Part shown: positions 5,605 to 19,164 of the stretch, in pieces
Position numbering within the stretch: position 1 is the stretch's first letter
Layout of the letters: every line of letters starts with the position of its first letter
Origin: a virus
Reading direction: 5' to 3' (one strand)
Virus record (IMG/VR): IMGVR_UViG_3300020469_000335
Coordinates: 1 to 20,277 of that record
Length of the DNA stretch: 20,277 nt
Program-made: the position numbers and the translations under genes
Notes under the pieces: model-generated
Databases searched by the model: none
The model's input: only the letters and a program-made list of their open reading frames with translations
Told to the model about the DNA's origin: nothing

Positions 5605-8600
5605 TTAAAAAGGTGAACCATTTTTTATATCAAATTCTTTTCTTCTAAACATCTCAGCTTCTCTTAGTTGTAATTCTTTTTTGTATCGTAAATCAAATTC
5701 ATCTGCTCTTGCATCTTCAATCTCAATCATCTTTTCAATCTTACGTCTGAATTCTCTAAGTTCTCTTCTGTATTCTTGCAGTCGTTTCCAATAAATATCA
5801 TCATCTACAACTAAATCTTTAATATCTAATACATCTAATCCAGTTGCAGTATCTACATCTAAGTTTCCTTCAGCTGCAGTTTCTGATGTATATAGTAGTA
5901 CATTAGGGTCTGCTTTGAATATTTCTATTACAGGTTTGCCATCAGGCGTATCTGGTGAATTAGTAGTTAAAGAATCAGATGTAGCCTTACATCCTAAGAA
6001 TCTTAAATTCTCTACCGATAATGGTAATTCATCTGTTCCTACTTGCGCTGGTTCTAATGATGATGAGTTTGGAAGTCCTAATGATGCCGATAACGCTGAA
6101 CTATAGAATAACTTAGTAATCTTAGCGTATTGAGCTGCTTTATTTTCTACAATAGTTGTTGCAATTGGATTGTAATTCCAACTACCATTAGAACCCGTAT
6201 TCCAATTTAAACCATAACCTACATCTGCTCCTGATTTATAAACAGGTATTACATATTTGTATTGAGATGGTGCGTACATATCTTTAATTTGTGGATTTCC
6301 AACATCCTCTACATCATCCTTTTGTGATGAAATAACAAGTAATGTAGATACATCGATTGGGTTACCTTCTAAAGTAAGTTCTTCTGAAGATAAAGTATAT
6401 GAGCTTGAAATTTCAGTTTCATATTGTTCTGTTTCAGCTGATAAACTATATGAGTTTGTAACTTCAGTTTCTAATATATGTTTAGATGCCGATAACGGTC
6501 TTTCCATAGTAGGAATGTGTGCATCGTACATTGGTCTTGTTTGAGTTACCTTAGTTAACGATTTAGCTTTTGGTCTTTCTAAGATATGTGGTTCAATCAA
6601 AATACCCGAGTTGTAATCAACTCTAGCGGGCATTGTTTGTCTGATTTGTTCAAATACCGACATATCGTATTTAGCAAGAATATCAATCGTACTATTGATT
6701 AAGTTTCTAGAACTATATTTTTTAAATACTTGTCTACGGATATAATCTAATTCTTCGTTTTGTTCGGTGTATCCACTTCTTTGGTCTGGATTACCAATAT
6801 AATCATCAATATCAAAATATCCCGTATGATTTATAATATCATCATTATACATTTTAGTAGCGGCTAAGTAAACACCAACCACATTTGAATCAACTGGCGC
6901 TGAATCGTATTGTGATTTTTCCATTTTGTTTTCAGGATTAAGAATACCAGTCAATGGGTTTGCTTCAGTTCTAACTTTATTGTTAAGGATATTGTTAGCA
7001 CCTGCTGATGGAACTTTTGTGTAATATTCCTCAGTAACACCAATCAAATCATCATTCTCAAAATTAAATAACGATGCAGTTAAATGAGAACCATTTACAG
7101 AACCTGTTATTTGTTGATTAGGATGTTGTGATAGATGTGAATCAGGATTACTAATTGTTTTTAAATTAGAATCTGGAATAAATCTAAACTTCAAATCAAA
7201 ATAAGATGAGGTTACAGAATTACCATGATAAGATTCTCTTGATAGAGTATGTTCATCAATAACAATATCTTTTAGTGGTTCAGCCCAATATCTTATTTCT
7301 TGAATAGAACCACTCATAGGTTGTGCACTACCCCATAATGTTGGAGCGCCACTTATTGTTCCAAACGAATTACCAAATTCAACAACACCACTACCAGTCC
7401 AAGCCGCATTATATGATGATTCAGTTGAACCATTAATCGATATACTTGCTGATTTACTTACTTGGATTCTATCTTTTCTGTTTCTTCTATATTGTAATTT
7501 GTAAACAGTATCTTTTGTTATATCATTTCCAGAGGTTTCTCTTTCTATCAAAAGAGTTCCCATATTAGAATCAAATAAATTTGGAACTGCTATAGATGCT
7601 GATTTATATCCACTACTACCACTTAGGTAGAAATGTATGTTACCTTTTTTGCTATAAAAATCAGTTGGGTATGTTGATTCAAACAATACTCCGAAATCAC
7701 TACCCTTACGAATAACACCAGTATGTCTGTTTAGGTTTTGAGCTACTTGTAATTCAATAACATCAATTGGGTTTGGTCCACCCACATTGATTGTGATATT
7801 ACCACCCATACCACTATGACTACTACAATAGTATTTTAAAGTAGGGGTTGCGTTTGATACTACTATTTGAACAGTTGAGTTAGCTTGTCCTTGCGTTCCA
7901 GTTACAGTAACACCAGTTGTATAAGATGAATTATCAGATGCTTTTTGGAATCTAAATGGATGTGAACCATTTGATGAATCACTTACATCGAATTTATAAG
8001 TGTTACCAGCTAACAATGTTAATGTTGGTTGTTTTACCTCATCAATTTCAAATACCCCATCAACTACTTTAACAACTTTAGTTATAGTTGAACCATTACC
8101 AGGAGTATTAGTATTAATTTCATATGTTACTGGATTTATATCTGCTACTTTATCCCAAGGAACTGTAATGTAATTATCTTTATCCATTCTTAAATGGTAA
8201 ACAAATCTATCATGTTCCCAATATGGTCTTACATCATGCTCAATTACAGGCCCACCATATTCTCTAATTGATAAGAATGTTTGTGGAATACCATATGTAG
8301 CTATTAATGCTTTAACGGCTCTTGCTGAACCTTTTGTTTTTAGAAGGTATGGGATATTGTTAACAATCCTTCTCCATACTTCATTGTTAATATCTTCGTG
8401 TGATTTAGATGGTAGTGAACCACTATTAGGTACATTACCGAATTTATCAGTTCCTAATCCAAACTCCCAAAGATTAGATGTATCTTTACCATGCGTTAAT
8501 TTCCAACCCATAGATTTTGCTACATCATAAAGAAGTTCGTTTGGCATACCATCATAAGGATGTTCTTCTCTTTCATTGATAGATGTTAATGCGTGTATGT

Positions 8601-10407
8601 AAGACCAGGTAATATCAAAGTGATGTCCAATCATATCTACGAATAAAACATATTCTTTGTTTAACGGGTCCTCTACAATTGATGCTGGTACTACTTTTGT
8701 TAATCTAGCATCGTTCATTGCGTCGTGAATACTTGCTGAATCTATTAACCCATTATAATGTGCTATACCTTGCGATGAGGTAACACTATAATTTACATTT
8801 GGGTATGTGCTTGATTTAGGCCAAGGTTCTAATGGAGTTGCAGATGATGTATAATGAGTGTATAATGAACCTGTAGATTCGGTGTACATCCAACGTTCCC
8901 AACCATCAAATCCACTTACTACCGCATCACGTCTACTAATTGATTGTGATATATTTGTTAATGCTTCAGAACCACTTACAGATTCTAACGTTTTAACTCT
9001 AGCATCAAATGATTCTATTAACTCTAATTTATATTTTAAATTATTTACTCTCTCTACTGCTGAAGAGTATTTAACGAATGAACCAAAAGATGTGAAATCT
9101 AAATTTAATTTTACACCACCAAATGAACCACTAATATACTTATCAATAATTTGTTGTGATGTTGATAAGTTTGTATCTAATAAATCATTCCAACTTTTTA
9201 AATCAGTACCTTGGGATTTTCCATAGTTACCCATATCGATTTTAAAGTTAGGTGGTGAAAAGTTTGCCTGCTCTTCAGGTTTTTCGATATTATAAAGTAA
9301 TATTCTTTCTATGTAAGAATCTCTAATTACTTCTTCAATCATTATTTGTTTCCCTGATAACCCATCTTCTAATGGTTTATATAACTTTACAACTACAGTT
9401 TTAAGTTGTGTTGAATCATAGTTTGGGTCATAATATCTAATTTTAGCAGAACGTGGTATGCTAGACCAAGTCGTACCCGCTCTGGGCGGTCCACTAAAAT
9501 ATTGAGACTCTTTTGGAATTGATATTGGATATACTTTCTCTTCCGGTCTACCATCGTAATCATCATCGTAGTAGTAATCTACATCTTCAGTTCCCTCAAT
9601 TTTTATTAACTCATAGCGAGGATTTCCGTTTTCATCGAATGTTATTTCAGCTTTTGCAAATCTACCAGTTGTTTTGTGAATGGTTGCAGGTGGGTCAAAA
9701 TCATTTTGTTGGGGAGCATTATAAAATTCTATCCAAAAATTATTTTCTGCTTCTTGTTCTGATGGTGCAAAGAATGTTGGTAACTCTGAATGTGTATCTG
9801 TTGGAAATGGGATACTTCCTGTCTGTATTCCTATTCTTGGATTGTTTTCAAAACTTACAGCCGTAACTACTGCAAGTTCATTACCACCAAAATTTAAAAC
9901 TAAATTTGGTTGTAAAAAATTTTGTCCATTATTAGGGTCAGCGACTGGGTTATCAATAAAAGTTTTTAGTTGAGTTAAATTATGATTAGGATTTACAAAC
10001 TCTAATTCTAATTCTGTATTATCTGAATTAGTATTTATAACCCTCATATGACTTGTAAGAGGTTTTGTAAAATTGTAAACAATACTATAATAACCTGTAT
10101 CCAATGCGGTACTTCTGATTTGCATTTCAGGTCTTAACAATATATTTGTTTCAAGCGGGTCATCACCTTGATTTAATTCATATTGAATCATACCAGTCAA
10201 CGATTCAACTAATTTATCAGCTGAGTACATGTGTGCTTCTGTTTTACAGAATGTATCATAATCAGATGGTTGTAGATTTACTTTTGTAAAAGTTGCCCCA
10301 TCGTTTATTAAGTTGTTAACATCTTCTAAGGAATATACTTGCGCACTATCTACAGGAACCTTTGAGGTAGTTAAAATATCTTTATTTTGAAATCTATTTA
10401 TTGCCAT
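5605..10407 (-). CDS. Giant baseplate/tail protein with tail-protein-I-like, LamG-like and cupredoxin-like modules
   Basis: A 1600-aa protein, the largest in the window. Residues about 560-720 resemble phage tail protein I regions, including EVWRRIVNNIPYLLKTKGSA followed by VKALIATYGIPQTFLSI. Residues about 730-1060 look like a LamG/concanavalin-like fold (SGSIQEIRYWAEPL near its end). Within it, about 757-880, is a cupredoxin-like module with His816, Cys861, His864 and Met867, ending KYYCSSHSGMGGNITI. Residues 1313-1346 are two 17-residue repeats. The last 70 residues form a charged helix (RRELREFRRKIEKMIEIEDA). Position downstream of gp6 and size suggest a wedge or peripheral baseplate role such as T4 gp7, but I see no direct gp7 similarity. 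AAAGGT precedes the ATG. Structural role fairly sure; copper binding inferred from ligands. Confidence 0.8.
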   Translation of the reverse strand: MAINRFQNKDILTTSKVPVDSAQVYSLEDVNNLINDGATFTKVNLQPSDYDTFCKTEAHMYSADKLVESLTGMIQYELNQGDDPLETNILLRPEMQIRSTALDTGYYSIVYNFTKPLTSHMRVINTNSDNTELELEFVNPNHNLTQLKTFIDNPVADPNNGQNFLQPNLVLNFGGNELAVVTAVSFENNPRIGIQTGSIPFPTDTHSELPTFFAPSEQEAENNFWIEFYNAPQQNDFDPPATIHKTTGRFAKAEITFDENGNPRYELIKIEGTEDVDYYYDDDYDGRPEEKVYPISIPKESQYFSGPPRAGTTWSSIPRSAKIRYYDPNYDSTQLKTVVVKLYKPLEDGLSGKQIMIEEVIRDSYIERILLYNIEKPEEQANFSPPNFKIDMGNYGKSQGTDLKSWNDLLDTNLSTSQQIIDKYISGSFGGVKLNLDFTSFGSFVKYSSAVERVNNLKYKLELIESFDARVKTLESVSGSEALTNISQSISRRDAVVSGFDGWERWMYTESTGSLYTHYTSSATPLEPWPKSSTYPNVNYSVTSSQGIAHYNGLIDSASIHDAMNDARLTKVVPASIVEDPLNKEYVLFVDMIGHHFDITWSYIHALTSINEREEHPYDGMPNELLYDVAKSMGWKLTHGKDTSNLWEFGLGTDKFGNVPNSGSLPSKSHEDINNEVWRRIVNNIPYLLKTKGSARAVKALIATYGIPQTFLSIREYGGPVIEHDVRPYWEHDRFVYHLRMDKDNYITVPWDKVADINPVTYEINTNTPGNGSTITKVVKVVDGVFEIDEVKQPTLTLLAGNTYKFDVSDSSNGSHPFRFQKASDNSSYTTGVTVTGTQGQANSTVQIVVSNATPTLKYYCSSHSGMGGNITINVGGPNPIDVIELQVAQNLNRHTGVIRKGSDFGVLFESTYPTDFYSKKGNIHFYLSGSSGYKSASIAVPNLFDSNMGTLLIERETSGNDITKDTVYKLQYRRNRKDRIQVSKSASISINGSTESSYNAAWTGSGVVEFGNSFGTISGAPTLWGSAQPMSGSIQEIRYWAEPLKDIVIDEHTLSRESYHGNSVTSSYFDLKFRFIPDSNLKTISNPDSHLSQHPNQQITGSVNGSHLTASLFNFENDDLIGVTEEYYTKVPSAGANNILNNKVRTEANPLTGILNPENKMEKSQYDSAPVDSNVVGVYLAATKMYNDDIINHTGYFDIDDYIGNPDQRSGYTEQNEELDYIRRQVFKKYSSRNLINSTIDILAKYDMSVFEQIRQTMPARVDYNSGILIEPHILERPKAKSLTKVTQTRPMYDAHIPTMERPLSASKHILETEVTNSYSLSAETEQYETEISSSYTLSSEELTLEGNPIDVSTLLVISSQKDDVEDVGNPQIKDMYAPSQYKYVIPVYKSGADVGYGLNWNTGSNGSWNYNPIATTIVENKAAQYAKITKLFYSSALSASLGLPNSSSLEPAQVGTDELPLSVENLRFLGCKATSDSLTTNSPDTPDGKPVIEIFKADPNVLLYTSETAAEGNLDVDTATGLDVLDIKDLVVDDDIYWKRLQEYRRELREFRRKIEKMIEIEDARADEFDLRYKKELQLREAEMFRRKEFDIKNGSPF
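6370..6471 (-). repeat. In-frame tandem repeat of 17 residues inside the 1600-aa protein
   Basis: Two adjacent 17-residue units, ETEVTNSYSLSAETEQY (1313-1329) and ETEISSSYTLSSEELTL (1330-1346). Nine of the 17 positions are identical (ETE, S, Y, LS, E and another shared S position), with further conservative changes. The DNA still shows related blocks (both start from TTCAGTTTC on the plus strand), so this is a diverged local duplication. It lies in a linker-like region before the C-terminal helix. Confidence 0.6.
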
Positions 10408-10415
10408 AATTACCT

Positions 10416-11489
10416 TTAACTATCCGATGTTTCTGCAGCATCTCGCGCTACATCATTAACAACACCTTGTACACCACCAACAAAGGAATTAGTACCTGAG
10501 TTATTATTTGCTGGGTAGAATATTACTGGGTCTGAAGGTAATGGACAATTAACCTCAAATACACACTTATCACCCATAATGTAAACACCATCATTAGCCG
10601 AACCAAAGTTAGATGTTATTTGATACAAATCATTTATTTGTAATGCCGAATTAGGAATTGTTAACTCTAAAACATGCATAGGATAAAATGGTTGGTCTGA
10701 ACCAAGTACTGTGCTACCCTCTGTTTTTACACGCTTTCTATTTTCTTCATTAGTTCTTCCAGCTCTCTTTCTCATAATAGCTGCATATGCTCCTACAGGT
10801 GAACCACCACTATGCCCTATTCTAAAACTAACTACTGCTCTAATGAAAAGGTCTCTTCCTGAAGCTTTTAATTCTTCAGTAACTCTATACCCATATTGGT
10901 CTAAGTCGGGTCCGAACATTTTTTTATCCCAAGCAAGTTCTTTATGTCCTTTAAATGTAATATAACCATCGGTTGCACTTCTAACGCCATCGTTATGATA
11001 ACTTATACCACCAAAGTGAGTATTACCAAAATCTCTTTGGCTATTTGAAATTTCAGATGTGTTTATATATCTGTAAGAAGGTGCGTTTGGTGTTAATTCA
11101 TATCTTGCACTAAATTCATCTTTAGGTTCTTCTTCTTCTGAACCTCTTACTGACCTTAAAGATTGGTTTTGTGCTTTATAAATCTTCGCTTCATCTAATC
11201 TGTTTTGTTCAATTATTTGACTTTCAAATTCAACAGGCGTTATGATTAATTCGTTTGATAGTTGTGGAATAGTACGTTCATATTGTACTTTATTAAACAT
11301 ACCAATTGAACCTGGTATTCTTTTAAATCCAAACTCATCTAACCCATTTGCTATATCTTTTTCAGATAGTGGATAAGACACAATTTGATTTGAACTATTA
11401 CGTCTTATTTTACGATAGTTTTCAGATTCATTTTGAACTGTTATGTTCAACTGATTTGCGCTATTACTTGGTGAATTATCTGCTGCCAT
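10416..11489 (-). CDS. Unassigned baseplate-region structural protein
   Basis: A 357-aa protein between the DNRLRE-like and the 1600-aa proteins, overlapping the former by one base (TAATG), which suggests translational coupling. The first 30 residues are polar and Asn/Ser-rich; residues 40-110 look helical; an acidic patch (GSEEEEPKDE) sits near 117-126; the rest looks beta-rich, with FGGISYHNDGVRSATDGYI and FIRAVVSFRIGHSGGS. No enzyme motif, signal peptide or membrane segment is seen. Its length is close to T4 gp8 (334 aa) and its position fits a wedge component, but I see no residue pattern that supports a gp8 call, so it is left unnamed. Confidence 0.7.
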   Translation of the reverse strand: MAADNSPSNSANQLNITVQNESENYRKIRRNSSNQIVSYPLSEKDIANGLDEFGFKRIPGSIGMFNKVQYERTIPQLSNELIITPVEFESQIIEQNRLDEAKIYKAQNQSLRSVRGSEEEEPKDEFSARYELTPNAPSYRYINTSEISNSQRDFGNTHFGGISYHNDGVRSATDGYITFKGHKELAWDKKMFGPDLDQYGYRVTEELKASGRDLFIRAVVSFRIGHSGGSPVGAYAAIMRKRAGRTNEENRKRVKTEGSTVLGSDQPFYPMHVLELTIPNSALQINDLYQITSNFGSANDGVYIMGDKCVFEVNCPLPSDPVIFYPANNNSGTNSFVGGVQGVVNDVARDAAETSDS

Positions 11490-13513
11490 TATCTAACCAC
11501 TTTAAATATAAACCCATCGAAATATTGTTGATTACCAGTTCGGTCAACTCTAAATTCGAATTGATAAAATCTTTCAGGTTGTAATGTATTAAATCTAAAA
11601 TCAAAGAAGTTTCCATTTGAATCACAACTAACCTTTGTATAAGTTGTATCGAATGGAATCAACACTAAATTTGTTTCTACATCTCTAACCTGGTAATAAG
11701 TAGTTGTGGGTAGATATTTAATTTGGTTATATGGTGCTGAGTTCGTAAAACTTCTTTGAGGATATGTTTCTCTACCAACAACTCTCAATTTAGCTCTTGA
11801 TAATTCTTTATATTCGGTTTTGAGATTCTTCATATATAATGTAATATCATCAGCCGTTAGTTCTGTAAGTGAACCTGTTGCGAATGATGAATCATCCCAC
11901 TTAGCTTCTAATGTAGGAACATATATCGTATGAGTATCATTTGAGAAGAACTTTGATGAACCATATTTAGTAGAACCACTTTCTTCTAAAACAGGTCTTT
12001 TAATAAGGAATCCATCATTAGGTCTACTCCCACCTAACATATCTTGTACATATGCAGTAACATCTACATTTAAGTCTGATGTTGATTTTGTAAATGATTG
12101 AGAATATTTATCACCATGTAGTGATGATGTGTACCAAGTTGCTCCACCTGAATTTTTAATGAAACCGGCTTCACTTATCTCTGGCGAATCCAATGAACCT
12201 GAATACTCTATTTTAAAATCATCTATAGAACCACTTTTTGGTGAGCTTGATGTATTATAGTATGTATATGCGAATATATAATCACCATTTACTGCTGGTG
12301 TAAATGATATTGATTGTGTTGCGTTAGCAGTATATGATGATGTAAGGTTTGTTATACCTGTTCTTAATGGTAATCCATTATTATCATATATTAAGAAATC
12401 TATCTTATCAAAATTACCTGGTGTAATTGATGCTGATACTGAGTATTGTAATCCGGCTTGCAGATTTACTGAGTATTGTGCATCTGCTCCGCCATCATCA
12501 GCGTATAAATTTAATTTAGATTCGGATGCGAACATTCTAACACTATTAGTTAAAGAATCATTTACTCTATTTCTTAATTTGAAGTTACCTTCATTTTGAG
12601 TAAAGGTTTCCCATACTATTAGGTTACCTTCTTTTTGATAAACATATACTTCATCAAATGTACCTGTTGTTGAAGTACCATCACCACTCCCATCAAAGAA
12701 TGTAAATCTTAATTCATGCTCCCCAGTTACTGTAGCACCCAAATCAAATGATTGAGTAGATGATGCTGTTATAGCACCTACCATACCTTCGTAATCACCT
12801 TGATTCTTTAAAACCCCATTAGGGTCTTTAATTCTAAATGTAACATCATCAAATGAGTTAGGGTCTATTTGAAATTGAACACCATATGTAATCCCAGTTT
12901 GTAGATATGCTGGGAACACTAACGTAGTTCCAGCAAAGTTTGATGCTGATATAACTAATTGTTCGTTAACAAGGGATGTGAATGGTGCGTTACCATTAAA
13001 GTCATTAATAGATTCTGTTAGAAATGCCGAACCACTTCCATCTGCAAATGATTCGTATAATACAACACCACTCTTTGGAGTTGTTTCAATATCTTTACCA
13101 TTAAGTATAGCTACAGAACCTACACCCCATAAATTATCTGTATTTCTTCTTTCCCAACTACAACCATTTGTGATATTCGGAGAATTGTTATACTGACCCA
13201 TGCCTTCAGACCAACTCTGTGAAACGGGATATACTTCTAATGTATATTCAGATTGTACTTCACTAGAATCAATTGATGTTAAGTTTAGTTGATACTTAGA
13301 AGAAGTTGGTATATCACCTGCCACAATTGATTGTGATATATCTGCTAAATCAAATTGTGTAAGTATTCTACTGTTACCAGTCAATACAGTATTTGAATCT
13401 TCATCGAAGAACTTGGTAACTTCCAACACTTCATCTAAACCTGTGTTTTGAGCTTTACGAGTATTTAACTCATAAATTGTAGTATCTTTTTGTCCGTATA
13501 TTCTATAAATCAT
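11489..13513 (-). CDS. DNRLRE-like structural protein carrying two inserted jelly-roll modules
   Basis: A 674-aa protein directly downstream of gp6. The N-terminus (KDTTIYE, SRILTQFDLADI, YPVSQSWSEG, NGCSWERRNTDNLW) and residues about 455-540 (GGATWYTS, VDVTAYVQDMLGG, NDGFLIKRPVLEES, FFSNDTHTIYVPTLEAKWDD) together follow the order of a DNRLRE-type beta-sandwich. Between them, about 150-295 and 296-440, lie two similar modules with the same order of elements: an opening VVLYESF or LIVWETF, then LQTGITYGVQFQI or LQAGLQYSVSASI, then FDEVYVYQ or IDDFKIEY. These look like carbohydrate-binding jelly-rolls of the CBM_4_9 kind. The rest (about 560-674) is unassigned. A peripheral baseplate or fibre role is inferred. 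GAGGATAT is a good ribosome site before the ATG. Confidence 0.75.
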   Translation of the reverse strand: MIYRIYGQKDTTIYELNTRKAQNTGLDEVLEVTKFFDEDSNTVLTGNSRILTQFDLADISQSIVAGDIPTSSKYQLNLTSIDSSEVQSEYTLEVYPVSQSWSEGMGQYNNSPNITNGCSWERRNTDNLWGVGSVAILNGKDIETTPKSGVVLYESFADGSGSAFLTESINDFNGNAPFTSLVNEQLVISASNFAGTTLVFPAYLQTGITYGVQFQIDPNSFDDVTFRIKDPNGVLKNQGDYEGMVGAITASSTQSFDLGATVTGEHELRFTFFDGSGDGTSTTGTFDEVYVYQKEGNLIVWETFTQNEGNFKLRNRVNDSLTNSVRMFASESKLNLYADDGGADAQYSVNLQAGLQYSVSASITPGNFDKIDFLIYDNNGLPLRTGITNLTSSYTANATQSISFTPAVNGDYIFAYTYYNTSSSPKSGSIDDFKIEYSGSLDSPEISEAGFIKNSGGATWYTSSLHGDKYSQSFTKSTSDLNVDVTAYVQDMLGGSRPNDGFLIKRPVLEESGSTKYGSSKFFSNDTHTIYVPTLEAKWDDSSFATGSLTELTADDITLYMKNLKTEYKELSRAKLRVVGRETYPQRSFTNSAPYNQIKYLPTTTYYQVRDVETNLVLIPFDTTYTKVSCDSNGNFFDFRFNTLQPERFYQFEFRVDRTGNQQYFDGFIFKVVR

Positions 13514-13526
13514 ACTATATCCTCGT

Positions 13527-15467
13527 TTAGAATTGTTGTGTTACAACCTGTCCTCTAATATCTTGATTAGGAAACTTCACTTCAAATATAGATGGGTCTT
13601 TAGGTGGATATATAATACCACCCTTAGTCGCATTTAATATACTATATTTGTTTGATGAATAGTTTCCGTTAAATTTGTTTACTATCTGTAATCCACCTTT
13701 TCCATCTCTATCAGGTCTTACTACAGTTTGTACACCATCTACCTTATCAATTTCAACATAAATTTTCGATAAATTAATTGGTTCATTAATTCTCCAATTA
13801 TCAATATCAAAATAATCCTTTAATCTATCAATAACTCTTAATAACACCTCATTAGAGTTAAATTCTGGCATAACTATGATTTCAAAGGTACATCCTATGT
13901 TTACTATATGTGCATTTTTTATGTTTACTGCATCTGTTAGTATTCTATGATAAGAAATGTAATTTTTTAAATTGTATTTAGTTGCAGCATTGAGATGTGT
14001 TAGATTCTTTGTGTTATCATACCCACAAGTATATAAATTTAATGCTAATGGATTTGGAATCTCAGTATTGATATACTGCCCATCTTGCTTAGATTGTTCT
14101 AATTGATAATCTTGAACTAAATATGCTTTTGCTACTGACCCGAATTGTGGTGGAAGAGAGTAACATCTCATTACATAATCTTCTCTAGTTACAGTTCTAT
14201 TTTGTGCAGCAAAGAATGCCATAGCATTCTGTCTAATTTCTTCTTGCGATTCTGTAGTCTTACCACCAACGGCAGCTGATTGATTTGAACAAGCTAATGA
14301 TTGTCTACAAAACGATACTACATTTCTATTTAGATTTATTTCGTTTTTAAATTCAGTATTGCTTGATATTACATCAACCAAATCATTAGCAGGAACATTA
14401 TCTATAATACCATTACCAACTAAGTAGGTAACAGTCAAAGTTGTATTTTGTGGTGCTACCCCATATGTTTTTGTATATAAGAAGTTAGATGGGTCTAATG
14501 ATGAATCTAAGTTTTGGTGTTCTGTATAAAGACCAGAACCAACATTATCAGGATTAGGAATTATTTCTTCATCTGCATTTGAAGATATACCTGCTCCAAA
14601 ACAAATTTGTAAAACTCCATCATCTTCAAACTTAGTTACATATCGTTTAGGAACTCTATTTAATTCTAATAGGTAAGGAGTATCACCACTATACTGATGT
14701 AAGTATGTTGAGTTATCTTCGTTATTATCTATTTGTTCAAATACAGTATCTTGTGCTAAATAAGGAACTCTTGTCCAAGTATCACCATCAGAATCTTTTA
14801 TACTTTTTACTCTAATTAAGTTATCTTCTTCAATTTTAATTTTATCATAAATCTTTGGTGCGGTGAATGTAAAGTCTTGTGTCTTTTCTTTACCACTTGT
14901 AGCTTTAACCTGCTTCTTTAGTAAGTAGTAAACAGGTAGATTTGTACTTTCATCAATCTGATAAACTGATACTTCAGTTGGACTAAATGATGATGAGAAT
15001 GAAAAATCAATTGATGATATTGTTGTAAATTCTACATCAGAAAAATCAGTAGAACCTATTATCATACCTTCACTTAAAACCATAGCATAATCAAAATCAG
15101 GTTTTACATCATCACCAACACCAGTTGCTGGTACTAATTGAAATACATCCATTGTTACAGATGCTGGTATAATGTTTTTTGGTTTGTATCCTAATGAGTT
15201 TACAATATTAAATAAGTTTACATTCTCTTCTGCTGTACTTAATAGAGATTCTCTTAATTGTGTATCTGTATAAAATGATAATACATCACCTACATATGAT
15301 GCCATTTCCATAAACATCATACCAGGAGATGATTCGTTAAAATCGTTAAATGTATTTGGGAAATAATTTTTAGAAAACTCAACTAAGTTTTTTCTAAATT
15401 CACCAAAATCTCTACCGATTAACGATACATCCTTTTGTACTAAATCTGATTTCTTTTTGTTTGCCAT
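13527..15467 (-). CDS. gp6: Baseplate wedge protein, gp6/baseplate J-like
   Basis: A 646-aa protein matching T4 gp6 in size (660 aa) and character. gp6 proteins form the wedge ring that clamps the hub and links the inner baseplate to the periphery. The N-terminal region has the typical SSPGMMFMEMASYVGDVLSF, followed by TQLRESLLSTAEENVNLFNI and SLGYKPK (about residues 45-100). The baseplate J-type segment near residue 400 reads TTESQEEIRQNAMAFFAAQN followed by RTVTREDYV. It lies 9 bp downstream of the gp25-like gene, the same functional pair as in many contractile tails. An AATAGGTTTAAG leader precedes the ATG. Confidence 0.9.
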   Translation of the reverse strand: MANKKKSDLVQKDVSLIGRDFGEFRKNLVEFSKNYFPNTFNDFNESSPGMMFMEMASYVGDVLSFYTDTQLRESLLSTAEENVNLFNIVNSLGYKPKNIIPASVTMDVFQLVPATGVGDDVKPDFDYAMVLSEGMIIGSTDFSDVEFTTISSIDFSFSSSFSPTEVSVYQIDESTNLPVYYLLKKQVKATSGKEKTQDFTFTAPKIYDKIKIEEDNLIRVKSIKDSDGDTWTRVPYLAQDTVFEQIDNNEDNSTYLHQYSGDTPYLLELNRVPKRYVTKFEDDGVLQICFGAGISSNADEEIIPNPDNVGSGLYTEHQNLDSSLDPSNFLYTKTYGVAPQNTTLTVTYLVGNGIIDNVPANDLVDVISSNTEFKNEINLNRNVVSFCRQSLACSNQSAAVGGKTTESQEEIRQNAMAFFAAQNRTVTREDYVMRCYSLPPQFGSVAKAYLVQDYQLEQSKQDGQYINTEIPNPLALNLYTCGYDNTKNLTHLNAATKYNLKNYISYHRILTDAVNIKNAHIVNIGCTFEIIVMPEFNSNEVLLRVIDRLKDYFDIDNWRINEPINLSKIYVEIDKVDGVQTVVRPDRDGKGGLQIVNKFNGNYSSNKYSILNATKGGIIYPPKDPSIFEVKFPNQDIRGQVVTQQF

Positions 15468-15476
15468 ATCTTAAAC

Positions 15477-15914
15477 CTATTCTATTGTACTTCCAGCTGA
15501 ATCATAAAACACTATTATTTGTTGGTTCGCACCCTGCTCTGTAACTCTAAACCTTAATTCAATTTTTACAAAATTTCTATCAGGTTCTGTTTGAACATCT
15601 ATATTGTCAATAACTATATAAGGTAACCAAAATTTGATATCTTCTGAAAGAGTATCTGAAATTCTTTCGTTCAAGTCTAAATCTATATTTTCAAAAAGCA
15701 AAGAATACACATCCGACCCGAATTCAGGTTGAAATGGTCTTTCACCTTTTCTGGTCAATAATAGATTCTTTAGATTAGATGTTGCTTGCTCTTCTGTTGT
15801 ATAACTTTGAGCAAATAATCCGTTGGGTTTACCGAATGGTAATTTGACACCAACTGCTACATCTTTTTCAAAATCTATTGGATTATAGAAAAACGTTTTT
15901 CTTTCTTTAGCCAT
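15477..15914 (-). CDS. gp25: Baseplate wedge protein, gp25/GPW-like
   Basis: A 145-aa protein of the GPW/gp25 family (T4 gp25 is 132 aa). gp25 sits at the centre of the wedge, binds gp6 and is thought to start sheath assembly. The family core is clear: NLLLTRKGERPFQPEFGSDV (about 50-69) followed by YSLLFE, then a helix-rich stretch (ISDTLSEDIKFWLPYIVID) and a strand pair (VKIELRFRV, QIIVFY). The conserved Arg-Pro and FG in the loop are present. GGGAAGATAG precedes the ATG. It is placed between the small 157-aa protein and gp6, four bases after the former. Confidence 0.92.
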   Translation of the reverse strand: MAKERKTFFYNPIDFEKDVAVGVKLPFGKPNGLFAQSYTTEEQATSNLKNLLLTRKGERPFQPEFGSDVYSLLFENIDLDLNERISDTLSEDIKFWLPYIVIDNIDVQTEPDRNFVKIELRFRVTEQGANQQIIVFYDSAGSTIE

Positions 15915-15918
15915 TTAA

Positions 15919-16392
15919 CTATCTTCCCTTTTTCTTATCAATCGCTTTCATCAATTGAGAATAATCTTTTGTTATAGCACCCACCACATTAGCCACTTCA
16001 GGATTAGATGTATCAACAGGTCTACCATCGATATCTTGCGTTGGTGCTGTTACCATAGAACCACCCTGCACAAATCCTTGCGCTTGATTGGATGTATATG
16101 GATTTGCATCTAAGTTTCTCCACTCACCACTTTGAGCTACATCATTTAACATTTCATTTAACATTTCATTCTTAACAAATGATTTTGGTTTAGATGTTTT
16201 TTTATTTTCTTCTATTGCTAAAATCTTACCCATATCAATTTCCAATGGGTCTACTTCAACCTTTTTAGATTTGATTTCTTTTATAATCGGTTTCTGAGAA
16301 TTCTTTATCTCTTTAAGCATAGGTTTTAGTTCTTCACGAACTACCTTTCTTACGATTACTTCTAATAATTGTGCTAAATCTTTTGCCTTCAT
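15919..16392 (-). CDS. Small helical protein of the baseplate operon, function unknown
   Basis: I place the start at 16392 (MKAKDLAQLLEVIV), giving 157 aa. The longer in-frame ATG at 16449 would add 19 residues (beginning MGWTSIKRKF) read through the AT-rich 17-bp element and would overlap the preceding gene by 19 bp. Residues 1-45 form a basic amphipathic helix (VIVRKVVREELKPMLKEIKN). After a Lys-rich linker comes the repeat EMLNEMLNDVAQSGEWR (76-92) and a Gly/Thr/Gln-rich loop, ending in ITKDYSQLMKAIDKKKGR. No named family is recognised. The position between hub and gp25 suggests a small baseplate or assembly factor. Confidence 0.75.
   Translation of the reverse strand: MKAKDLAQLLEVIVRKVVREELKPMLKEIKNSQKPIIKEIKSKKVEVDPLEIDMGKILAIEENKKTSKPKSFVKNEMLNEMLNDVAQSGEWRNLDANPYTSNQAQGFVQGGSMVTAPTQDIDGRPVDTSNPEVANVVGAITKDYSQLMKAIDKKKGR
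16143..16166. repeat. Perfect 12-bp tandem repeat inside the 157-aa gene
   Basis: CATTTAACATTT occurs twice in direct succession (16143-16154 and 16155-16166) and is followed by a third partial CATT. It is in frame and encodes the doubled EMLN EMLN in the protein. Perfect identity suggests a recent slippage duplication. Confidence 0.85.
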
Positions 16393-16405
16393 AATTTCTG
16401 CTTTA

Positions 16406-16422
16406 TATATAAATATTAAAAA
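16406..16422. promoter_or_regulatory. AT-rich 17-bp element, copy 2 (candidate late promoter)
   Basis: Identical over 17 bp to 4444-4460 (TATATAAATATTAAAAA on the plus strand). It lies 14 bp before the chosen start of the 157-aa gene, in a 38-bp gap. It contains TATAAATA at 16408-16415 on the plus strand, opposite to the genes. With a gp55-like sigma factor encoded nearby, a late-promoter role is possible, but orientation argues for caution. Its presence supports the shorter start of the 157-aa gene. Confidence 0.4.
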
Positions 16423-16430
16423 CTTTCTTT

Positions 16431-17069
16431 TTATACTAGTCCAACCCAAGGTTGTGGCGATGGGAATGGTGGAAGTGGTGTTATTGGTGTTCCAGGTGTT
16501 ACTAATTCTGTATGTAAACCACCAATTGTTGTTAAATGAATTGTAAATGCATTTACTAATTTAGTAGCAAATGGAATACCATATGGTATCTTTTGTGGTG
16601 CATGTGTAAATGCTTTTAACAACCCCGCTTTAAGTCCTGGCACTACTCCACCATTGTTTATGATATGTGTTATCGGTGCAGGTATTCCCACCGTTCCAGT
16701 TGATAATCCAATATTAATTGGGTGAAATGGTGTTGGGGACATTTTAGTTTGCAACCAATAGGTTGATGTTGTTTGGGCCCAATCTGAAAAATGATTTAGT
16801 TTAGGTCTACCTTCAGATTTTTTTATATCATCTAAAGTTTTTTTGATAGCATTTTTAATTGGAGTGTATGGTTTCGGAGCGGATGGGCTTGGCATATAAC
16901 CTAATACTAATGGCATATTACCCGGATGAACAAGTGTATTGGCAGTTTTTACTGCTTTATGATACTCCGATGCTATCTTCTCTGCAATTTCATCGTGAGT
17001 TTTTTTTGATGATGTAGAATTAAGATAGTTACCTACTGCTGGTATGAATGTGGGCCAAAGTGCGGGCAT
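16431..17069 (-). CDS. Unassigned 212-aa protein next to the hub gene
   Basis: The start is MPALWPTFIPAVGNYL, 4 bp after the hub gene stop. The protein is rich in Pro, Thr, Ile and His. Residues 20-45 look helical (KKTHDEIAEKIASEYHKAVK); the middle has SPTPFHPINIGLSTGTVGIP, followed by a Gly/Ile-rich stretch that could be weakly hydrophobic. The end is proline-rich (TPGTPITPLPPFPSPQPWVG). No signal peptide or catalytic motif is evident and I do not recognise a family. In T4 the region after gene 5 holds small tip proteins such as gp5.4 (PAAR), so a tip or hub accessory role is possible, but I see no clear PAAR repeat. No strong ribosome site is visible, so coupling to the hub gene is likely. 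Confidence 0.7.
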   Translation of the reverse strand: MPALWPTFIPAVGNYLNSTSSKKTHDEIAEKIASEYHKAVKTANTLVHPGNMPLVLGYMPSPSAPKPYTPIKNAIKKTLDDIKKSEGRPKLNHFSDWAQTTSTYWLQTKMSPTPFHPINIGLSTGTVGIPAPITHIINNGGVVPGLKAGLLKAFTHAPQKIPYGIPFATKLVNAFTIHLTTIGGLHTELVTPGTPITPLPPFPSPQPWVGLV

Positions 17070-18078: not shown

Positions 18079-18449
18079 TAATCTTCTCCCTCTTCTGTAT
18101 TACTTAGGGCATCAATCTTATCATCGATTTCTTTTGCGTTTTCCAAAAGTTGTTTCTTCTCATCTTCGGATAAAGATAATCCACCTTCATCAGATGAGTT
18201 AACATCTTTCAACATTCGTTGAACAATTGCTGCTAACTTTACAATCTGCTCATCGTTCTTAATTGATACTTCCATATACTCTTTAATCAAAGGAACAATC
18301 ACAGTCGCATCTTGTAGATTCTTTACTAATGGTTCTAATTGTGCGATAAGAAGTTTTAGTTGCCTATCCTTCTTTTTAGAATTGTTATAAACATCAGACA
18401 TAATATCTGCAAATGTTTTTCCTTTAAATAATTCAGTATCCTTATCCAT
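18078..18449 (-). CDS. Conserved-looking helical protein between sigma factor and hub, function unknown
   Basis: A 123-aa, almost entirely helical protein: FKGKTFADIMSDVYNNSKKK, then QLKLLIAQLEPLVKNL, DATVIVPLIKEYMEVSIKND and EQIVKLAAIVQRMLKDV, ending in an acidic tail (EEGED). No membrane segment or enzyme motif is visible. It overlaps the sigma gene by 8 bp and the hub gene by 1 bp, so it is translationally coupled to both. I have the impression that proteins with this pattern are shared among T4-like phages from aquatic hosts, without a name. Its size resembles the T4 late co-activator gp33 (112 aa), and its place beside a gp55-like gene makes this worth considering, but I see no residue evidence for it. 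AAAGGATAG precedes the ATG. Confidence 0.8.
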   Translation of the reverse strand: MDKDTELFKGKTFADIMSDVYNNSKKKDRQLKLLIAQLEPLVKNLQDATVIVPLIKEYMEVSIKNDEQIVKLAAIVQRMLKDVNSSDEGGLSLSEDEKKQLLENAKEIDDKIDALSNTEEGED

Positions 18450-19164
18450 TACTATCCTTTAATTTATATCTTAGAGATAATGAGCCTTTTTGATTATATT
18501 CGGTATATAACTCTACATAAATACCTTTTAGTTTACCAACTACTTTTGTTATATACTGAGTATGTACACCCGTTCTCTCCCTAATAAGTATGTAGAGTGC
18601 CTTCTTATTGTACGAATATAAATCATATCTGTTCTTAAATAATTCATTTATTGAATCAGCTATTGCTCTATCTCTATCTTTTAAAAATATTTCATACAAA
18701 TGGAAATCTATGTATTTTGTATAGTGGTCAATAAAATCTGATTTTGCTTCTTTGTTGTTTTGGTCTACAATCTCATTTACTATATTACGAGAACTATCAA
18801 TATACTTTACTTCAGTTTTTGATTTCATCCTAGCGTAGTTTGCGTTATTCTCATTGAATAAATAATTTCTTGCTACTACTGTGAAATAGGAAAATGCTCT
18901 ACCATTCTCACCATTGAACTTATGAATCTTTTCATTCAAAAATGCAACTACACTTGCTTTCACATCTTCATATGGTACATCAAAGTAATATGTTTTATAA
19001 GTGTGGATTACATTCTCTGCTAACTTATCAAATGGATAATGAATGAATCTATTATAGATTTTGTTCTTTAGCTGGTTATCATCACAACCATTATATGCGT
19101 TGATTGCGATTTCGGTGATTTTGGTAAAATATCTTTTACTCCTTTTTCTTCTTTTTTTAGGCAT
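18442..19164 (-). CDS. gp55: Late-transcription sigma factor, gp55-like
   Basis: A 240-aa protein with a sigma-70 region 2-like core at about 45-112 (FDKLAENVIHTYKTYYFDVP, then VKASVVAFLNEKIHKFNGEN, GRAFSYFTVVARNYLFNENN). This is the pattern of T4 gp55-type sigma factors that direct host RNA polymerase to late promoters. It is longer than T4 gp55 (185 aa) and has a basic N-terminus (MPKKRRKRSKRYF). Residues about 188-215 (IRERTGVHTQYITKVVGKLK) look like a helix-turn-helix. The T4 gp55 C-terminal clamp-binding motif (SLDFLYE type) is not evident; the end reads SLSLRYKLKDSNG. The start overlaps the preceding gene by 8 bp. Confidence 0.85.
   Translation of the reverse strand: MPKKRRKRSKRYFTKITEIAINAYNGCDDNQLKNKIYNRFIHYPFDKLAENVIHTYKTYYFDVPYEDVKASVVAFLNEKIHKFNGENGRAFSYFTVVARNYLFNENNANYARMKSKTEVKYIDSSRNIVNEIVDQNNKEAKSDFIDHYTKYIDFHLYEIFLKDRDRAIADSINELFKNRYDLYSYNKKALYILIRERTGVHTQYITKVVGKLKGIYVELYTEYNQKGSLSLRYKLKDSNG

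Follow-up and report, generated by a model that had tools for sequence, protein, structure and literature searches.

Amicyanin, plastocyanin, pseudoazurin, and rusticyanin are blue copper proteins of the cupredoxin fold, whose copper ligands follow the order His...Cys-x2-His-x2-Met. In amicyanin, for example, Cys92, His95, and Met98 provide the Cys-x2-His-x2-Met spacing, while Gln is an alternative axial ligand, as in stellacyanin. Phage structural proteins, on the other hand, are decorated by the Ig-like and BACON domains. For metals on phage tails, the Trojan Horse or Ferrojan Horse hypothesis invokes iron held by HxH motifs in T4 gp37 and similar fibres (PMC11705849). Cupredoxins and phage decoration domains are each known, whereas a combination of the two on the baseplates and fibres of marine phages, in which the copper ligands are conserved, is apparently new; our literature search, of partial coverage, found no cupredoxin or blue copper domain on phage tail fibres or baseplates, and an earlier mention is possible. 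We here describe such a module, which shares fold, profile, and ligand order with the four proteins above, in a 20,277-nucleotide virus fragment (IMG/VR record IMGVR_UViG_3300020469_000335, hereafter the window).

A cupredoxin domain in a 1600-residue protein

The module lies in a 1600-amino-acid structural protein encoded on the minus strand (5605..10407). The stretch assigned there to the module, 7768-8139, corresponds exactly to residues 757-880, and the motifs and ligand numbering given for it were likewise exact when checked against the translation. Thus, TLTLLAGNTYKFDV occupies residues 795-808, GSHPFRF residues 814-820, and KYYCSSHSGMGG residues 858-869. The predicted copper ligands are His816 of the HP motif (7960..7962, minus), Cys861 (7825..7827, minus), His864 (7816..7818, minus), and the axial Met867 (7807..7809, minus), with the C-x2-H-x2-M spacing of amicyanin, so that the predicted type-1 set is complete and in the blue-copper order originally proposed. 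The whole protein contains only three cysteines, and the pattern H-x30-60-C-x2-H-x2-M appeared in 4 of 20,000 shuffles of its sequence, indicating that the ligand motif is not a product of chance. Chance was also ruled out by the structural matches in the PDB and by the profile matches to Copper-bind and amicyanin described below.

An AlphaFold2 model of the module, built with 15 relatives, reached a pLDDT of 86 (most of the core above 90) and a pTM of 0.79, and showed nine strands arranged as a Greek-key beta-sandwich. In this model, the first His precedes a strand, the Cys lies at a strand end, and the second His and the Met are located in the next loop. A Foldseek search of the PDB with the model was led by rusticyanins (E 2.4e-4, probability 1.00), followed by plastocyanin, pseudoazurin, laccases, and nitrite reductases; up to E 1e-2 the matches were cupredoxin-fold proteins without exception, and the best were nearly all blue copper proteins. 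TM-scores against single cupredoxins were about 0.5. The predicted structure is therefore the cupredoxin that had been proposed, and not the non-Greek-key fold named as the contrary outcome.

We also compared profiles. By hhalign, the family profile matched Copper-bind domains (prob 95, E 3.3e-8) with the HP and C..H..M motifs aligned. A second profile, of gp9-type domains from cyanophage relatives, gave amicyanin as its best sequence match in the PDB (E 1.1e-4), and matched Copper-bind (prob 98, E 5e-15), the module family of the window (prob 99, E 9e-20), and the window itself (E 5.1e-17). Furthermore, a bridging protein from a cellular Bacteroidetes genome (L240) matched both PF00127 (2.7e-7) and the phage family profile (6.8e-6). 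Homology of the module to known cupredoxins such as amicyanin and plastocyanin is thus detectable at the sequence level through profiles.

The window sequence alone was less telling: it scored 13.6 bits against Pfam PF00127 (Copper-bind), under the curated cut-off of 21.2, and we therefore file the module under the cupredoxin superfamily rather than under PF00127. PDB searches with the single module sequence (plastocyanin, 0.54) and with the first family profile (pseudoazurin, 0.49) were not significant. The suggested HMM search for blue copper proteins accordingly succeeded with the family and gp9-type profiles, but not with the window sequence by itself. Scores under the Pfam cut-off also explain why annotation pipelines miss the module. 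An Ig-like domain was considered in view of a weak match to Pfam Big_13 (E 0.006, under the cut-off), but the structure and profiles favour a cupredoxin. Weak matches to PF25489 (At5g54830-like), also under the cut-off, provide a lead. Taken together, residues 757-880 contain a cupredoxin domain of the plastocyanin/amicyanin type with His816, Cys861, His864, and Met867.

The carrier protein and the site of insertion

The gene for the 1600-residue protein stands in a run of tail genes. Upstream of it are genes for a gp25-like baseplate wedge protein (15477..15914, minus; PF04965, 2.4e-12) and a gp6-like one (13527..15467, minus; PHROGs match, with a weak TIGR02243 match). Flavobacterium phage immuto has the same order of gp25-like protein, gp6-like protein, two further proteins, and large protein. 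Based on these neighbours and the order kept in immuto, we infer that the 1600-residue protein is a baseplate protein. Comparison with one T4 gp7 sequence found no similarity, and a gp7-like identity is suggested solely by the position of the gene after the gp25-like and gp6-like genes.

Other genes of the window, all on the minus strand, were read as well. A 703-residue protein (504-2615) has a Laminin_G_3/ConA-like domain (2e-10) and gives the tail cluster a second lectin-like member, and a 674-residue protein (11489-13513), encoded one gene from the module protein, has a DNRLRE domain (6.9e-9, exceeding the cut-off). An endonuclease is encoded at 57-482 (phrog_945, 4e-51). The 240-residue protein at 18442-19164 has no family match; its sequence may resemble a T4-type late sigma factor gp55. 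For the gene at 15919-16449, the listed start is a TTG overlapping the previous gene, and a start roughly 19 residues further in, at the ATG of MKAKDLAQ, is likelier.

Comparison with homologues delimited the module as a clean insertion of residues 765-876 (7780..8115, minus). Module-less relatives have one residue where the window has 112, as in TYEIN-D-PNPIDVIEI against TYEIN-(112 residues)-PNPIDVIEL, and this empty site was found in about 30 related proteins. Among about 37 distinct close homologues, the carriers are the window, the near-identical contig L001, L002, L005, L006, and L008, together with L003, L004, and L007, which were counted because their matched stretches equal those of L008 in length and identity. 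Relatives at about 80% identity exist without the module, indicating that it is not needed for assembly of the 1600-residue protein. The homologue alignment was built without the module rows, which misaligned in a combined alignment. A tree built from the flanking protein groups the carriers into a single clade of eight, inside which two empty members are nested (support 0.83), consistent with either one gain and one loss of the module or two gains.

The protein around the insertion appears lectin-like. In an AlphaFold2 model of residues 600-1115, the part after the insertion (residues 879-1055; 7243..7773, minus) was well modelled, with a pLDDT of about 90, whereas the helical residues 600-730 (8218..8610, minus), the conserved core common to distant homologues (NNIPYLLKTKGSARAVKALIATYGIP), were modelled poorly. 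Foldseek matched this model to LamG, pentraxin, and CBM40 folds, assigning the first strands of a LamG-like domain to residues 739-751 before the insertion (8155..8193, minus; model strands 140-142 and 147-152) and the remainder of the LamG/pentraxin-like domain to residues 879-1055, so that the jelly roll is found on both sides of the module. Several of the structural alignments exceeded the target in length by at least 80 columns, which is what a LamG-type fold interrupted by the module after its first strands would produce. Laminin_G_3 matched 2 of 32 homologues (best 6.5e-6). The empty sites in relatives and the flanking LamG fold of the model together identify the module as an optional insertion in a loop of a predicted lectin-like domain of the LamG/pentraxin type. 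Neither this insertion nor the recurrence of the module across marine phage tails was noted in the preliminary description.

Conservation of the ligands and spread of the module

Most relatives were collected by a scan seeded on TY[KR]FD, and not on the ligands. Of 156 domains, 147 carried HCHM at the ligand positions. When clustered at 60% identity, 28 of the 33 clusters with all four positions were HCHM and one was HCHQ, while all four ligands were lost in three clusters and three of them in one; these degenerate copies number four, and their alignment is less sure. Across 35 clusters, the ligand columns ranked 6th, 7th, 9th, and 11th in conservation, the axial Met being kept about as strongly as the Cys and His residues. 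None of 1365 control sets of well-conserved columns was lost together as cleanly as the ligands, and a permutation test, which ignores relatedness, gave 0 of 200,000. The gp9-type domains that were read kept the ligand set in 15 of 15 cases, one with its Cys-His spacing lengthened by two residues. Hence, the four ligands are kept or lost as a set, and the free variation of Cys and His that the preliminary description had named as contrary evidence was not seen. In these alignments, the all-or-none pattern, unmatched by the controls, points to selection on a metal site.

Some individual copies deserve mention. The HCHQ copy (L251) comes from a Prochlorococcus single-cell genome; its contig also has a plastocyanin gene and may be cyanophage. 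Three proteins from flavobacterial metagenome-assembled genomes (L194, L195, and L247) have two cupredoxin-like copies each; one copy is HCHM, and the other has other residues at all four ligand positions (YDYR, YDFG).

A tblastn search with the module returned 74 phage records, mainly from Synechococcus, Prochlorococcus, Pelagibacter, and Methylophilales phages, under the product names tail fibre, virion structural protein, baseplate wedge, and hypothetical. A gp9-type query returned 332 records, cyanophage or marine throughout, and the two sets overlap. The family phrog_677 (gp9, fibre connector), with more than 300 cyanophage records, includes a module-type domain at its C-terminus. The module is also present in podoviral tail fibres, its position within fibres varies, and some proteins have three copies, while in IMG/VR at least 575 stretches encode relatives. 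The structural proteins that carry the module are diverse, and close homologues differ in having it, as for a phage decoration module. Matches in "cellular" genomes may in part be phage sequence in single-cell assemblies, although at least one lies in a 5494-residue protein on a 1-Mb Bacteroidetes contig. Virion proteomics has been published for S-SM1, S-PM2, and Syn9 (PMC3037559).

Possible roles of the predicted metal site

We propose, at about even odds, that the inserted cupredoxin with its predicted type-1 site serves at the surface as an accessory module, stabilised by copper and oriented towards the host or the fibres. In this proposal, a cupredoxin domain with a predicted His-Cys-His-Met site has been inserted into a loop of a lectin-like domain in a marine phage baseplate protein, and would be one of a mobile family that in marine phages decorates tail fibres, the connectors of fibres, and further proteins of the baseplate. 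Copper would be acquired after lysis, either from sea water or at the surface of the host, and the bound metal would lock the beta-sandwich in a compact form. This sandwich would add to the distal surface, giving an accessory contact with the host envelope or with neighbouring fibre parts. Copper occupancy, exposure on the particle, and the contact role are presumed here, beyond the observed motif, fold, profile homology, insertion with its empty site, recurrence in tail proteins, and joint retention or loss of the ligands. Several points count against this proposal: degenerate, ligand-less copies persist, indicating that the fold can serve without metal; the window sequence by itself stays under the Copper-bind cut-off; and TM-scores to single cupredoxins are about 0.5. 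In addition, the cytoplasm in which phage proteins fold offers little free copper, so that loading must be later or partial. Nevertheless, a metal-stabilised accessory module on the distal face explains the mobility, the optional presence, the ligand pattern, and the retention of Met with the fewest assumptions. Among the structural, signalling, and borrowed-sandwich roles raised at the outset, the evidence therefore favours a mobile accessory module whose metal site is under selection and whose metal may stabilise the fold or serve in sensing or as bait.

Working type-1 copper centres on host-facing tail parts, whose metal or redox state aids host recognition or baseplate triggering, are an unlikely alternative, though they would be the more striking result. 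Copper would be a bait or trigger here, with the loaded site docking to a copper-handling or redox protein of the host, or a change in surface copper or redox state signalling to the baseplate. Since Met is kept about as well as Cys and His, and the sole single substitution is Gln, copper suits the site better than a generic structural metal, and both gp9-type connectors and tail fibres carry the module. Among published ideas, the Trojan-horse proposal of iron on tail fibres comes closest to such a role (PMC11705849), which would be its copper counterpart. However, there is no known receptor or partner, the relatives at about 80% identity do without the module, and it occurs in many different proteins of phages of unrelated hosts.

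We consider it equally doubtful that the module is simply a structural beta-sandwich comparable to the Ig-like domains of phage proteins, its ligands being a relic or holding zinc or nothing. Its promiscuous occurrence, the several copies in some proteins, the ligand-less copies, and the permissive insertion loop would all fit, and a purely structural role accounts for mobility and optional presence, but not for the all-or-none ligands or the kept Met. A relic would be expected to decay residue by residue, whereas the ligand columns are among the most conserved and their joint loss far exceeds that of the controls.

A docking or assembly module that joins baseplate and fibre proteins inside the virion is improbable; it is suggested by the gp9 connector of cyanophages, which has the module as its C-terminal domain, but the module is also in podoviral tail fibres, lies at varied positions in fibres, and differs in presence among close homologues of the 1600-residue protein. 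An electron carrier like free plastocyanin, which the complete predicted ligand set would allow, is hardly credible for a domain anchored in a large structural component of a particle outside the cell, and the window contains no gene for a redox partner.

Since the module recurs on tail proteins of hundreds of marine phages, many phages may bear copper where they contact the host. Should the sites hold copper, the copper-bearing particles among known marine phages would number in the hundreds and include many cyanomyovirus genera, with relevance to the trace-metal chemistry of the sea and as a handle on host recognition. The domain, previously filed under "tail fibre", "gp9", or "hypothetical", now has a name.

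Compared with the known systems, the module is set apart from free blue copper proteins, which are exported electron carriers, by being inserted in a virion structural protein; its middle section is longer than in single-domain blue copper proteins, and it has no known electron-transfer partner. Like the Ig-like and BACON domains, it is a mobile beta-sandwich added to structural proteins that some close relatives have and others lack, but those belong to another fold family and have no conserved metal ligand set. For both the gp37-type HxH sites and the module, the proposal is that tail parts of marine phages that face the host bear metal ions, the former as octahedral iron in the HxH motifs of a fibre, the latter as a predicted type-1 copper-type site in a folded domain. 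PetE, the cyanophage plastocyanin, is also a cupredoxin encoded by marine phages, but its gene stands alone, derives from the host, and has a metabolic role in photosynthetic electron flow, whereas the module is part of a tail protein. In the cyanophage gp9 connector (phrog_677), the C-terminal domain is a divergent member of the module family, terminal and very common there, whereas the module of the window is internal, optional, and in another protein.
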